A DNA stretch of 64,000 nucleotides, from NCBI RefSeq assembly GCF_900155545.1, contig NZ_LT732526.1:2742899-2806898 (forward strand), given 5' to 3'. This document shows positions 24,608-57,869 of this stretch, piece by piece. The stretch's first letter is position 1, and each line of letters opens with the position of its first letter. Position numbers and translations under genes: made by a program. Under the pieces are notes generated by a model, which made no database searches, was not told the origin of the DNA, and saw only the letters and a program-made list of their open reading frames with translations. The DNA comes from Clostridium sp. Marseille-P2415 (GTDB taxonomy: Bacteria; Bacillota; Clostridia; Lachnospirales; Lachnospiraceae).

Positions 24608-25024
24608 GTATTATAATTATTTTAAAAGGATGTGATATTTATGACAATTCCTAATGGAATGATTCACAAATATCCAGATAATGGCGAAAATTGATTAAAA
24701 TCTAAAAGGCATCTCGCGAATTCGAGATAATAAATACTCAATTACATTTCTATGTAAATTGATGAGTGTTTCCTTAAGGTGTTTTTAGATGTATACATTA
24801 ACTTGACAACTTCATTTTACAAGTGGTCTTGACTGTATGGGATACAGAAAGAGCCGAACCCCCTATAATAAAAGGCCCGGCTCTGATTCTTAATTACTGA
24901 ACGATAGAAACAACTATTCTTAGGACGCTCTGTAAGCCCAGGAAAACTTGCTTAAAATTTGTATTACCCGCTTTAGTACCAAAAATTGTGGTCGGCTTTT
25001 TTGTAAAATATATCCTCTAGTAAG
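24608..25024. other. AT-rich spacer with gene remnant and hairpins before the TAC operon
   Basis: Base composition drops here. A 17-codon frame with a good AAAAGGA Shine-Dalgarno (24641-24694, starting MTIPNGMIHKYP) looks like the cut-off beginning of a lost gene. ATCTCG...CGAGAT near 24711-24728 and a bulged stem around 24736-24768 are small palindromes. AGAGCCG (24850-24856) with CGGCTCT (24878-24884) forms a hairpin with TCTTTCTG after it on the minus strand and may end the TAC operon. I see no complete gene. Confidence 0.5.
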
Positions 25025-25489
25025 CTATTTTACAACTCCTGCTTCTTTACTTTCAGATTCTTCCTTCATTCTAATAAGTTCGAACACATTTATCATAGGG
25101 AAATTTATCGGTTCAACAAAGCCGGACAACGCTGTGGCAGCAGTTACATACGCTCTGCTAAGCTGCATAAGTGTACTAATACCATTTACTCTCAGCATGT
25201 TATTAAATTTTTTTTCATCTATTTCATCCTTATTTGCTTCAAAAATCCCCATCATATCTAAATTTATATCAAAAAGTTTTTCATTACTATCAGTAACTCC
25301 AGTCAATAAAATCATTAAATCAATACGTGCTTCCAGCTGTTTATTTGATTCTGATATGTTAGAAATATTGAAATCAACACCAATCTTAACATTTGTTGAA
25401 TCATATTCTATAATATTATCAATTTGCTCAAAATTAAAATTCACAACATGATTCCTTTTCATTTGAAATGGAGAAATAATATTTTTCAT
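25025..25489 (-). CDS. SecB-like chaperone of a toxin-antitoxin-chaperone (TAC) system
   Basis: The 154-residue protein resembles SecB: an N-terminal beta-rich part with alternating hydrophobic residues, and a final helical stretch whose pattern, ISTLMQLSRAYVTAATALSG then INFPMINVFEL, mirrors the SecB C-terminal region (YARECISD...FPPLNLAPVNF). Ordinary SecB is generally missing from Firmicutes, while solitary SecB relatives beside HigBA-type genes are known from TAC systems, best studied in Mycobacterium tuberculosis (Rv1955-Rv1957). There the chaperone protects an aggregation-prone antitoxin. Its ATG overlaps the antitoxin stop codon (ATGA), so translation is probably coupled. The SecB assignment rests on pattern and context, not on a search. 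Confidence 0.75.
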   Translation of the reverse strand: MKNIISPFQMKRNHVVNFNFEQIDNIIEYDSTNVKIGVDFNISNISESNKQLEARIDLMILLTGVTDSNEKLFDINLDMMGIFEANKDEIDEKKFNNMLRVNGISTLMQLSRAYVTAATALSGFVEPINFPMINVFELIRMKEESESKEAGVVK

Positions 25490-25860
25490 GATGCTAACCC
25501 CATATCATAACAATATTCTTTGTTCTGAGTTAATTTCTGATTGCCTTCATAGCAGTAATTATATTTTCTGGCCATACTATTTAATTCAATTTTAAAATTC
25601 CAAGATAATTTCTGAGCTATTTCAAATAGCATCTTAACAGTAGGATTATAGTCACCACTTTCCAATTTTGAAACCATTGCTTGCGTCATATTTAATTTTT
25701 GAGCCAAATCTTTTTGAGTCATTTCATTTTCAGCTCTGTATTTTATAAATTCGCAAGCAATATCTACCAACAAATTATTAATTTCCATTTCTTTCTTAAA
25801 TTCATCTGTCTCTTTTTCAAAAAACGAATTTGCATTCAAAAGCATTTTTTGATTTTCCAT
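25486..25860 (-). CDS. HigA-like HTH antitoxin with C-terminal extension
   Basis: The 124-residue protein has an Xre/HigA helix-turn-helix at residues 47-90 (MTQKDLAQKLNMTQAMVSKL, then SGDYNPTVKML). After it comes a 30-residue tail with YNYCY and YCYDMG, rich in aromatic residues and unlike the usual short end of HigA. In Mycobacterium TAC systems such a tail is the chaperone-addiction region that binds the SecB-like partner, and the same role is likely here. The start is at 25860, nine bases after AAGGAGGAG; the ATG at 25881 overlaps that site. The toxin gene precedes it by 21 bases. The helix-turn-helix probably represses the operon at its palindrome. Confidence 0.85.
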   Translation of the reverse strand: MENQKMLLNANSFFEKETDEFKKEMEINNLLVDIACEFIKYRAENEMTQKDLAQKLNMTQAMVSKLESGDYNPTVKMLFEIAQKLSWNFKIELNSMARKYNYCYEGNQKLTQNKEYCYDMGLAS

Positions 25861-25881
25861 TGTAATCAACTCCTCCTTCAT

Positions 25882-26292
25882 CTAAATACCAAATAACTCT
25901 TTTCTCCTTACTTTAGCTAACCTTATTTCAGATTCATAGTCTTTTGTCCTTTTCTCTTCAAAGCAATTGTATAAAACAGCAATCTCCTTTTTATCAGATT
26001 CATAAAAGCTAAACAAAATGCGAATGTTTTTTTGACCATGGAGAATAATAGAATATATACCATCTGTATTTACAAGTTGTTCGAATAATTTGGGTTGCAT
26101 TATACAACTTTTCTTCAATTGTTCTAAAAATCTTAGACTTTTATGGTATTTAGTTTTAAATTCCTTTATGTATCCACTATTTTCAATTAAATCCCTCAAT
26201 TCTTTATTAAAAGTTGGATAAGTGAATACATAGACTGTTGCATATTCTTCCGGATAAAGAATCTTGTGTAAATTAACTATCTTTTCGTCCAT
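25882..26292 (-). CDS. HigB/RelE-superfamily toxin (Gp49-like)
   Basis: The 136-residue protein fits the phage-derived Gp49-like/HigB family. The core runs from about residue 45: LRFLEQLKKS, then DGIYSIILHGQKNIRILFSFY, then VLYNCFEEKRTKD and the basic ending AKVRRKELFGI. Relatives cut mRNA on the ribosome. The toxin comes first, before antitoxin and chaperone, the reverse of most toxin-antitoxin pairs but usual for HigBA and for the TAC order. The first 40 residues are longer than in many HigB proteins. AGGA lies 13 bases before the ATG, a weak ribosome site that would suit a toxin. Confidence 0.85.
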   Translation of the reverse strand: MDEKIVNLHKILYPEEYATVYVFTYPTFNKELRDLIENSGYIKEFKTKYHKSLRFLEQLKKSCIMQPKLFEQLVNTDGIYSIILHGQKNIRILFSFYESDKKEIAVLYNCFEEKRTKDYESEIRLAKVRRKELFGI

Positions 26293-26318
26293 AAGTAGTA
26301 TTTCCTACTGGTAATGAA

Positions 26319-26347
26319 AGTATACAACTTATAAGTTATATTTTCAA
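26319..26347 (-). promoter_or_regulatory. TAC operon promoter with palindromic operator in the spacer
   Basis: On the minus strand TTGAAA (26342-26347) and TATACT (26319-26324) are 17 bases apart. The perfect palindrome AACTTATAAGTT (26326-26337) fills the spacer, where a bound HigA-type antitoxin would block RNA polymerase. AGTA-ggaaa-TACT (26298-26310 region) before the toxin start could be a second site. Confidence 0.7.
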
Positions 26348-26405: not shown

Positions 26406-26435
26406 CATTACATAGTATCAGTATACTATGTAATG
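26406..26435. repeat. Perfect 30-base inverted repeat
   Basis: CATTACATAGTAT (26406-26418) and ATACTATGTAATG (26423-26435) are perfect 13-base arms around CAGT. TTGACA at 26402-26407 overlaps the left arm. It lies between the TAC promoter and the integrase remnant, suggesting an operator or a recombination-related site; as RNA it would be a strong hairpin without a U-run. Confidence 0.7.
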
Positions 26436-26516: not shown

Positions 26517-26640
26517 TATTTCACCAGAGAAGAATTTGAAAGGTTTATAGAAACCGTAGTAAGTCCAGAAGCTTATGCTGTATTTCAGATGCTATACTGA
26601 ACAGGCCCTCACATTGGTGAGTTCCTTACCCTTACAAAGG
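26517..26640 (+). pseudogene. Fragment of a tyrosine recombinase (integrase)
   Basis: Read on the plus strand from 26517 the frame gives YFTREEFERFIETV, then AVFQMLY, a TGA stop, then TGPHIGEFLTLT. This matches the start of the catalytic domain of phage and transposon integrases (WTxEEFxxFI ... LLYYTGMRIGELLALT). The arginine of the RIGE motif reads histidine here, the stop sits where a Tyr or Trp is usual, and nothing follows the L-T-L-T motif. It is a short, dead remnant and marks a past integration event next to the TAC operon. Confidence 0.7.
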
Positions 26641-26642
26641 AA

Positions 26643-26671
26643 GGCTGTGGCATCATGCCACAGCCATTTTT
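26643..26671 (+). terminator. Strong hairpin terminator next to the GH31 gene end
   Basis: GGCTGTGGCA (26643-26652) pairs perfectly with TGCCACAGCC (26656-26665) around TCA, followed by ATTTTT on the plus strand. It lies 30 bases past the GH31 stop codon, so it probably also ends the minus-strand transcript although the U-run there is weaker. Confidence 0.8.
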
Positions 26672-55879: not shown

Positions 55880-55909
55880 GGGCAGCGTTTCCGACCGCTG
55901 CCCCTTTTT
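55880..55909 (+). terminator. Terminator-like stem at the border of the defence island
   Basis: GGGCAGCG (55880-55887) pairs with CGCTGCCC (55896-55903), followed by CTTTTT on the plus strand. The minus-strand U-run is poor. It separates the NlpC/P60 gene from the AT-rich stretch. Confidence 0.6.
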
Positions 55910-56045
55910 ACTGCTATATTCAGTCTTAGCTCATAGTTTTCTTTTTCAGATATATTTATTTCTGTTTTGTTTATTTAATGAGCTGAATTCTATGTATTAT
56001 TTTATATTTCTTTTCGTTCAAAAGAATGTTAGAATCAGAATAGAA

Positions 56046-56786
56046 TCATACTATTTTTGAACTATTTACTTTATACATTTCATGATCAATATAATCAATA
56101 ACAGTTTCAATCAGTTCTTCCAAAAAAGAAATTACAAATTTTTCGTTACTCTCAATATCTGAAATTGCGTCCATGCGAACTGCATCAGTAAATGAAACTG
56201 AACCATGTGCTAAATTATTCCTTTGAGTCTTAATACTATTTAAAATATCCGGCCTATAATTCCTACTGTTTGTTGATATCATAATTCCATGTGATTCAAA
56301 AGTTTGCCTTATAGATATCCCATCTAAATTTCCTGCAGGTAATGAACTTCTGGAATGTATATCTAATGTAACATTATCTATAATATTATCTATTATTTCT
56401 TCATTCTTTCTTAAAAATGTATTAAAATTTGCATTAGGATCATTTGTAGATTTGAGTATGTTTTTTCTCCATAAAGCACGTATACATTCATTGACATCAA
56501 CATATGTAAGCCCATGTATCCGAATTTCGTCATAAATGCTATCCATTAAGTTTGTAATTGTGTATTCAATAATATTATAAATCATTAACGACACATTAGA
56601 CTTAAGTATGTTTATTAGTGATTGATATGTTAAGCTAATTCTATCCTCTCCTTGATAAAAAAAACTTGAAAACTCACTTATATCGTCTTTCTTTGAAAAC
56701 TCTTTTTTCTCAAGGAATTTCATCAATTCAATAAATTCTTCTATTTCTTTTTTTCTACTTTCATATGTATCCTTAAACGCAATCAT
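56046..56786 (-). CDS. HEPN-like protein (MAE_28990/MAE_18760 type) of the methyltransferase module
   Basis: The 246-residue protein is helical and AT-rich in its codons. Near the C-terminus QRNNLAHGSVSF carries the RX4H motif (Arg-N-N-L-A-His) of HEPN RNases and their relatives; earlier parts (MIYNIIEYTITNLMDSIYDE) look like the matching HEPN helix. It resembles the MAE_28990/MAE_18760-like HEPN families, which comparative genomics has placed beside DUF262 genes. It is the last gene of the operon and starts directly after the DUF262 stop (TAAATG). An RNA-cutting toxin or effector role is inferred, not shown. Confidence 0.72.
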   Translation of the reverse strand: MIAFKDTYESRKKEIEEFIELMKFLEKKEFSKKDDISEFSSFFYQGEDRISLTYQSLINILKSNVSLMIYNIIEYTITNLMDSIYDEIRIHGLTYVDVNECIRALWRKNILKSTNDPNANFNTFLRKNEEIIDNIIDNVTLDIHSRSSLPAGNLDGISIRQTFESHGIMISTNSRNYRPDILNSIKTQRNNLAHGSVSFTDAVRMDAISDIESNEKFVISFLEELIETVIDYIDHEMYKVNSSKIV

Positions 56787-57869
56787 TTATTCTCCCATAA
56801 GTAACTTATCTTTTACATACTGAATTCTTCCTATTAGTTTACTTTTATTATTCGCTGCATCTGATTTAGTTCGTTTGGAAAACTCATCTTCATCTATCCA
56901 AGAAGCATCCTTTACTTCTAAATCTGGCTTATCTTGAATAGCTAATGAAATTCCAATAGCTAATGCTTCAAATCTCGCTCTTGGAGTTGACTTGGAGGAT
57001 ATAGTTTTACGAAATCCTCTCGCTCCTAAAAAAAGCTCTGCGTAATCTAACATATTTTCAAATTTTTGTTTATAATCATCCAATATTTCTTTATTGGTTT
57101 CACAAGATTTATTCTGCTTATCAATATAATTATCAATATATTCCGTCACATTTCCATTGTAACCTATGAAATCATTATTGTAGTTATCAACATATGCAAA
57201 AAATCTTGATACTAACTCAAAACCTTCGTATCTATCCTCTGTTAATTTAGTTCTAGGAGCTAATTTATTAAATTTTTTATTTTTAACACACTCTTCCAAG
57301 AAGTTTTTAAATTCTCCCTCAAATGATCCCCTCCTTGTTTCTGTTGGAGTTGCTGGAATTCCTCCGGTATTGATTCTTTTAAAAATTTCCTGCCTAACTT
57401 TTTCAGTTGTTCCTTCTTCTAGAAATACTACACGTATATTAGTATTCAAAAACCTTCTTTGAATTGCAGGATCGAAATCCTCAAATTTAAATCCATTCGA
57501 GTCTGTTAGAATTTTCAAATCATTCAATTCTAAATCATTTTGTGCAAATTGTACTAATGTCTGAGTCCTTTGTGCTCCATCAACAATTTCAATTCTACCG
57601 TCATCTGTGTCTGCAAAAAACATAAAAGGAATAGGTAGTCCCATCAAAATTGATTCAATAAAGAAACACTTTTCTTTATCTCCCCAAATAAAATTTCTTT
57701 GATATTCCAAAGGTATATAAAAATTACCAGATTCATATTGCTGAATCAAATAGTTAATAACATAGTCCCTTGTATCAAATTTTATATCTTGCTTCTTTTC
57801 ACTTATCTGTTGTGCCGATTTAATAACCTCAGATTCCAATTTCACAACATTTCCTTTCCCATTTTTCAT
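56787..57869 (-). CDS. DUF262 (ParB/GmrSD-like) protein
   Basis: The protein of 360 residues has the DUF262 domain: IPLEYQRNFIWGDKEKCFFIESILMG, then IEIVDGAQRTQTL, with the DGxQR signature, and later FKRINTGG. DUF262 proteins are ParB-like NTP-using nucleases, found in GmrS/GmrD type IV restriction and in other defence operons. No DUF1588/GmrD (HNH) domain follows; the C-terminal half is charged and helical. The start at 57869 has AAGGAG five bases upstream; the longer reading to 57932 would overlap the methyltransferase gene. It is in the middle of the three-gene operon. Confidence 0.85.
   Translation of the reverse strand: MKNGKGNVVKLESEVIKSAQQISEKKQDIKFDTRDYVINYLIQQYESGNFYIPLEYQRNFIWGDKEKCFFIESILMGLPIPFMFFADTDDGRIEIVDGAQRTQTLVQFAQNDLELNDLKILTDSNGFKFEDFDPAIQRRFLNTNIRVVFLEEGTTEKVRQEIFKRINTGGIPATPTETRRGSFEGEFKNFLEECVKNKKFNKLAPRTKLTEDRYEGFELVSRFFAYVDNYNNDFIGYNGNVTEYIDNYIDKQNKSCETNKEILDDYKQKFENMLDYAELFLGARGFRKTISSKSTPRARFEALAIGISLAIQDKPDLEVKDASWIDEDEFSKRTKSDAANNKSKLIGRIQYVKDKLLMGE

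Follow-up and report, generated by a model that had tools for sequence, protein, structure and literature searches.

A putative toxin-antitoxin-chaperone operon with an atypical HigB-like toxin in a Clostridium genome

Toxin-antitoxin-chaperone (TAC) systems are known mainly from Mycobacterium tuberculosis and Escherichia coli. The locus described here lies within a stretch of 64,000 nucleotides from Clostridium sp. Marseille-P2415 (the window), and it raises the question of whether such a system is also present in this bacterium and, if so, whether it would work in the same way. The list of open reading frames places genes for a HigB/Gp49-like toxin, an HTH antitoxin and a SecB-family protein on the minus strand at 25025-26292, adjacent, closely spaced and in TAC order. 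The features of the locus are:

26319..26347, minus strand: promoter-like TTGAAA-N17-TATACT, from a promoter scan; the stretch is also kept in locus L002
26326..26337, no strand: palindrome AACTTATAAGTT in the -35/-10 spacer upstream of the toxin gene; candidate antitoxin operator
25882..26292, minus strand: gene for a 136-aa toxin of the RelE/HigB (Gp49) superfamily, in a divergent subfamily with F-x-E
25486..25881, minus strand: gene for a HigA-like HTH antitoxin of 131 aa (124 aa from the likely start at 25860)
25489..25581, minus strand: residues 101-131 of the antitoxin, a C-terminal tail and candidate region for chaperone addiction
25489..25500, minus strand: antitoxin C-terminus -GLAS; ssrA-like ClpX-degron pattern
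25486..25489, minus strand: antitoxin stop and chaperone start overlapping in ATGA, read from the sequence
25025..25489, minus strand: SecB-like chaperone gene, 154 aa
24850..24884, minus strand: hairpin resembling a terminator, following the chaperone gene

The first-pass annotation had proposed a three-gene TAC operon arranged as in M. tuberculosis. All three reading frames are indeed present on the minus strand, with antitoxin and chaperone coupled by ATGA, and the toxin-antitoxin-chaperone order is confirmed. Of the span that it assigned (25025 to 26347) the start holds, whereas the genes end at 26292 and position 26347 is the first base of the -35-like box. The toxin stop and the antitoxin start abut without overlap (TAG directly followed by ATG), and an opposite-strand reading frame (24948-25451, plus strand) covers part of the chaperone gene. 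The same three genes are found in locus L002, with identities of 62% for the toxin, 61% for the antitoxin and 53% for the chaperone. Comparing the window with L002 we obtained dN/dS values of 0.39/1.70 for the chaperone and 0.27/2.27 for the antitoxin, and a dN of 0.32 with saturated dS for the toxin. Because L002 carries the same genes in the same order, with dN well below dS, we conclude that the operon is more than a chance arrangement. The order is kept in six loci (L002, L003, L021, L027, L028 and L034), and the last five of these represent further HigBA-type TACs. Gene order, coupling, the long antitoxin tail and its C-terminal degron pattern all fit a TAC.

The assignment of the third gene had been made from a C-terminal pattern, and it is borne out by profile searches against Pfam, PDB and PADLOC. 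The Pfam search that had been proposed for the 154-residue protein gave 26.3 bits for SecB (PF02556), just above the cut-off of 26, and 28 of the 33 members of the chaperone alignment (A7), that of the window included, match SecB at E <= 0.01. A profile of these 33 proteins matches the SecB structures 1qyn (5e-13), 5jtl and 1fx3 (3.7e-12), and matches Rv1957 weakly (E 0.22). In PADLOC, the sole match of the chaperone is PD-T4-9_C (CmdC), with E 3.8e-6. The protein belongs to the same Pfam family as the SecB export chaperone, but it differs from it in lying in an operon with a toxin-antitoxin pair and in scoring far below the NCBIfam export equivalog (NF004392, 31.7 against a cut-off of 143). 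The chaperone is also matched, at 1.5e-11, by phrog_21664, a phage protein family without a known function, and relatives of the chaperone thus occur in viral genomes. SecB has strands followed by two helices, and the AlphaFold model of the chaperone shows the same; the models were built from two-row alignments and are poor (pLDDT 52.9 for the chaperone, 55.4 for the toxin), and we used the element order alone. The Pfam SecB search of the host genome returned no match, though the protein passes when searched alone: the empty result is a limit of sensitivity, not absence. The presence of a SecB-like gene in a Firmicute had been taken as surprising, a point that does not stand, given that the SecB domain was reported in Firmicutes by Sala 2014 (PMC4257090), where 63% (44/70) of SecB sequences outside alpha-, beta- and gamma-proteobacteria are described as adjoining toxin-antitoxin genes. 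Of the ten chaperones associated with HTH antitoxins, eight fall together on a tree of all 33 (72/79, a weak value, with one DUF-type row inside), and the label is clustered, with 3 changes versus a mean of 8.7 in shuffles (none of 500 was as low).

The antitoxin scores 48.9 bits for Pfam HTH_3 (cut-off 23), and HigA is the top match for a profile of ten antitoxins (6af3_B, 2e-14). Since a strong ribosome-binding sequence, AAGGAGGAG, sits 9 bases before the internal ATG at 25860, the sequence suggests that this is the real start, giving a protein of 124 aa. With either length, 131 or 124 aa, the antitoxin has a C-terminal extension missing from two-component relatives: by eye, none of 15 non-TAC HigA antitoxins has a tail after the HTH, and 14 of them measure 92-116 aa as called (the other, at L047, is called from a TTG further upstream and has 148 aa). 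The controls come from 37 match rows, of which we read the reading frames of 16 loci (L040-L045, L047-L055 and L067), chosen as the highest-scoring among those free of in-frame stops, leaving out L046, L056-L066 and seven rows without a locus; L054 proved to be TAC-like and was moved out, which gives 15 controls. The third reading frame of L054 matches SecB at E 0.054 only. The tail evolves fast (dN 0.65, dS 0.76 over 30 codons between window and L002), and there is little sign of purifying selection on it.

The tail of the window antitoxin ends in -GLAS, a candidate ClpX-type degron by pattern, which, with -LAS rather than -LAA, resembles a degron in kind and not in letter. The host tmRNA tag is ANNNELALAA, ending in ALAA, and clpX is present in the host genome. 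Two host genes score above the clpX cut-off (L076 and L077, 637.6 and 495.6 bits). Of 28 genes that adjoin a SecB-like gene, 25 have an alanine in the last two residues of their product, compared with 1 of 15 non-TAC HigA antitoxins (Fisher 1.2e-7), counts which are inflated by related loci and pairs and in which "antitoxin" means, for DUF6575-type loci, merely the gene beside the chaperone. The 28 loci leave out L010, as well as L020, L030-L033 and L035, which have no toxin- or antitoxin-like neighbour in the stretch read; the three exceptions are L022, L025 and L054. For HTH-type antitoxins alone the figures are 9/11 versus 1/15 (Fisher 1.6e-4), and none of the 33 chaperones in A7 has such an alanine. 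The idea of a terminal-residue signal has already been stated for known TACs (Texier 2021, cited in PMC8165232, and the CmdTAC paper): in M. tuberculosis HigA1 the last Val-Ala is described as a ClpX signal that shares a tail with the chaperone site (PMC8165232), and the C-terminus of CmdA is given as LAA (PMC11618068). The only new part is its extent among these genomes.

Upstream of the toxin gene, the promoter scan alone is weak evidence, with 20 promoter-like sites in the region versus 12.7 expected. The palindrome AACTTATAAGTT occurs exactly at five places among 82 loci (the window, L002, L021, L025 and L027), all of them TAC promoters, and the remaining matches are copies; six other HTH-type loci (L003, L028, L006, L034, L029 and L054) do not have the operator-like site. 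The 16-mer ATATAACTTATAAGTT is present once in the 5.25-Mb host genome, within the TAC promoter. Across 391 genomes it turns up in 8, at TAC promoters in five and elsewhere in three. At these three places we found no toxin-antitoxin pair on the one side read, considering reading frames of at least 80 aa, and a reversed control pattern is found in 5 genomes (a count of genomes alone); the three therefore look like background. The 16-mer is found in 5 of 21 SecB-positive versus 3 of 370 SecB-negative genomes (Fisher 1.4e-5, assuming that the SecB and 16-mer surveys covered the same 391 genomes). We infer from the sequence that the antitoxin would bind the palindrome. A perfect 13-bp inverted repeat with a 4-bp loop, AT-rich, lies at 26406-26435, upstream of the promoter-like site.

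The toxin of the locus is unusual. Its score for Pfam Gp49 just misses the cut-off (23.8 versus 23.9 bits), while those of its homologues in L002 and L028 pass it (24.9 and 24.7). A profile of seven toxins has M. tuberculosis HigB1 as top match (7nbu, 6.5e-4) and also finds HigB 6af3 (0.0026), so that homology to the RelE superfamily is supported both by the profile and by the homologues. The low-confidence AlphaFold model (55.4, two-row alignment) reads strand-helix-helix-strands-helix, an element order that would fit the RelE fold. We found no ADP-ribosyltransferase match of the toxin, the type present in CmdTAC, in Pfam or PADLOC. In HigB1, K95A is described as abolishing toxicity, and R68A and R77A as inhibiting it (PMC9098466); the solved HigB1 entries show A at the K95 position, fitting the described mutant. 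The window toxin keeps the R77 equivalent (R91), and has I83 at the position of R68 and E113, adjoining K114, at that of K95; it thus lacks the full set of basic residues. Position R68 is R in L002, L021, L028 and L034 and not in L003 and L027. Position K95 is E in the window, L002, L021, L028, L003 and L027 and, by eye, in L054, versus K in L034 and, by eye, in 15 of 15 control HigB toxins; that is, F-x-E in seven related toxins versus F-x-K in the 15 controls. The active site thus appears atypical. Since the equivalents of R68 and K95 are not kept, RNase activity cannot be transferred to the window toxin by analogy, and the earlier label "HigB-like" holds for superfamily membership and fails for these two residues.

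SecB-like genes are patchily distributed. A search with the single chaperone protein gave matches at E <= 0.01 in 14 of 299 genomes of the family, host included, several of them weak; a 13-row profile detected such genes in 21 of 391 genomes of the class and in 1 of 25 of the genus, the host itself. GC content is 28.5% in the operon versus 46.2% in the window; of the 1.27-kb stretches sampled along the window in 100-base steps, the one poorest in GC begins within the operon, at 25201. Low GC together with patchy presence suggests that the operon was probably acquired. Its two flanking genes are metabolic, one CoA-enzyme-activase-like and the other a family-31 glycoside hydrolase. We found no protein match in plasmids or, by tblastn, in 50,697 phage records, and three scans of viral contigs confirmed no relative. 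Scanning genome contigs with the single protein also returned no relative, and with two rows it returned L037 alone, by identity the same place as L002. A second low-GC stretch of the window (about 28-30%) spans 55901-57868. A broken frame at 26520-26660 (plus strand) is reminiscent of a tyrosine recombinase; the idea of an integrase remnant was dropped, as its two pieces, searched separately, gave no integrase match in Pfam. At L003, a recombinase-like reading frame, recognized by eye, adjoins the TAC.

Starting from the observed gene content, order, overlap, homology, selection, tail, degron pattern and conserved operator-like site, we consider it very probable that the locus is a HigBAC-type TAC operon, with an antitoxin guarded by its chaperone and a toxin freed when the chaperone is titrated. 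Binding, degradation, toxicity and trigger are our extrapolation, as follows. The antitoxin would bind the toxin and would also use its HTH domain to bind the palindrome of its own promoter. The ssrA-like end of its tail may be recognizable by ClpXP, and the SecB-like protein, made from the overlapping start, would bind the tail and hide the degron, by analogy with the M. tuberculosis TAC and CmdTAC, and so probably keep the antitoxin alive. What would titrate the chaperone away is most likely a phage structural protein as it is being made, by the example of E. coli HigBAC and CmdTAC: their described triggers are the major tail protein of lambda (cited in PMC11980606) and the T4 capsid (PMC11618068), respectively. 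The unprotected antitoxin would then be degraded and the toxin, judged by its homology a probable growth-stopping protein, would stop growth, probably by acting on translation. Toxin activity and trigger are the least secure of these steps. Against the mechanism count the lost R68 and K95 equivalents, the -LAS end, the low export-equivalog score, the 3 of 28 loci that break the terminal pattern and the near-equal dN and dS of the tail.

Three described systems serve for comparison. The M. tuberculosis TAC, HigB1-HigA1-SecB(TA) (Rv1955-Rv1957), has the same gene order, a SecB-like gene and an antitoxin tail, with a C-terminal ClpX degron there (PMC8165232) and a candidate one here, and its toxin is the best PDB match of our toxin profile; it differs in K95 and R68 and in the weak match of its chaperone. 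E. coli C496 HigBAC (Mets 2024, cited in PMC11980606) likewise comprises a HigB-type toxin, HigA and a SecB-like HigC, a likeness taken from its description. CmdTAC, as PD-T4-9 was renamed (PMC9519451), shares the SecB-like chaperone and small residues at the antitoxin C-terminus, but CmdT is an ADP-ribosyltransferase and CmdA consists of two helices and an unstructured domain, whereas the window has a RelE-like toxin and an HTH antitoxin.

That an ordinary HigBA pair merely came to lie beside a SecB-like export chaperone is highly improbable. SecB-like genes without a toxin- or antitoxin-like neighbour do exist in the class (L030-L033, L035), but chance placement accounts poorly for the ATGA overlap, the conserved order, the tail absent from the non-TAC relatives read, and the weakly supported grouping of HTH-type chaperones on the tree. 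It is also unlikely, though less so, that antitoxin and chaperone are live while the toxin has been weakened or retargeted, so that the locus is no longer an mRNase TAC. I83 and E113 would agree with such a change, R being retained at the first position in sisters L002, L021 and L028, and so would L025, with only an 81-aa reading frame in the toxin's place, and L006, with antitoxin and chaperone and no toxin seen. Yet the window frame is intact, with low dN against saturated dS; F-x-E, common to seven toxins, is characteristic of the family and not a sign of recent decay; and L003 and L027 also have no R at the first position while keeping intact frames.

A question of role rather than of machinery is whether the same TAC serves stress response or mobile-element maintenance instead of phage defence, differing from our reading in the trigger alone. 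We give this reading a real chance, if somewhat short of even: the M. tuberculosis TAC is described as responding to stress (PMC4257090), and the operon has low GC and patchy presence. But for two E. coli TACs the trigger is a phage protein, of the capsid or the tail (PMC11618068, PMC11980606), and a third is reported to protect against T2 (PMC9519451). Under the preferred reading, a HigBAC-type TAC responding to phage, the chaperone becomes a candidate sensor of the phages infecting these bacteria, and tail, degron pattern and operator-like site provide short, directly testable predictions.

TACs, SecB-like genes in Firmicutes, and phage defence by E. coli HigBAC and CmdTAC were already known. 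What is added is a TAC subfamily set apart by its toxin motif and promoter site, which extends TAC systems to a further bacterial group, and a wider spread of chaperone-linked toxins. Our literature search returned no title on SecB TACs in Clostridia or on SecB-linked GNAT toxins, most subscription papers being outside its reach. We also raise, as a reading less likely than not, that the RelE-fold toxins of the TAC lineage in this class (presumably Clostridia) may have passed from a basic F-x-K to an acidic F-x-E, and hence to another RNA chemistry or target, that the SecB-like protein may sense phage proteins, and that one SecB/degron switch may control unrelated toxins (RelE-like, ADP-ribosyltransferase, GNAT and DUF6575) in these bacteria.

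Other toxin types were seen beside SecB-like genes. Seven loci (L004, L007, L008, L009, L018, L024 and L036) have a CmdT-like ADP-ribosyltransferase, a small variable gene ending in -AA or -AC, and a SecB-like gene; L007 and L009 match PADLOC PD-T4-9_A, L004 gave nothing, and the other four were recognized by eye. Four loci (L013, L014, L023 and L026) combine a gene of ~130-190 aa and one of ~190-236 aa ending in -AA or -LA with a SecB-like gene. In L014 the middle gene falls just below the cut-off for DUF6575 and matches PD-T4-10_B at 1.9e-4, the other three being assigned by eye; these may be PD-T4-10-like systems with a chaperone, the B protein of PD-T4-10 being described as the toxin (PMC9519451). 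A GNAT acetyltransferase-like gene, a gene ending in -AA or -SA and a SecB-like gene are found together in L005, L011, L012 and L017, with Pfam GNAT matches just below cut-off in L005 and L012 and by eye in L011 and L017. We regard these four as a putative TAC type with a GNAT toxin; on the tree, a branch (88/69) separates their chaperones from all others.
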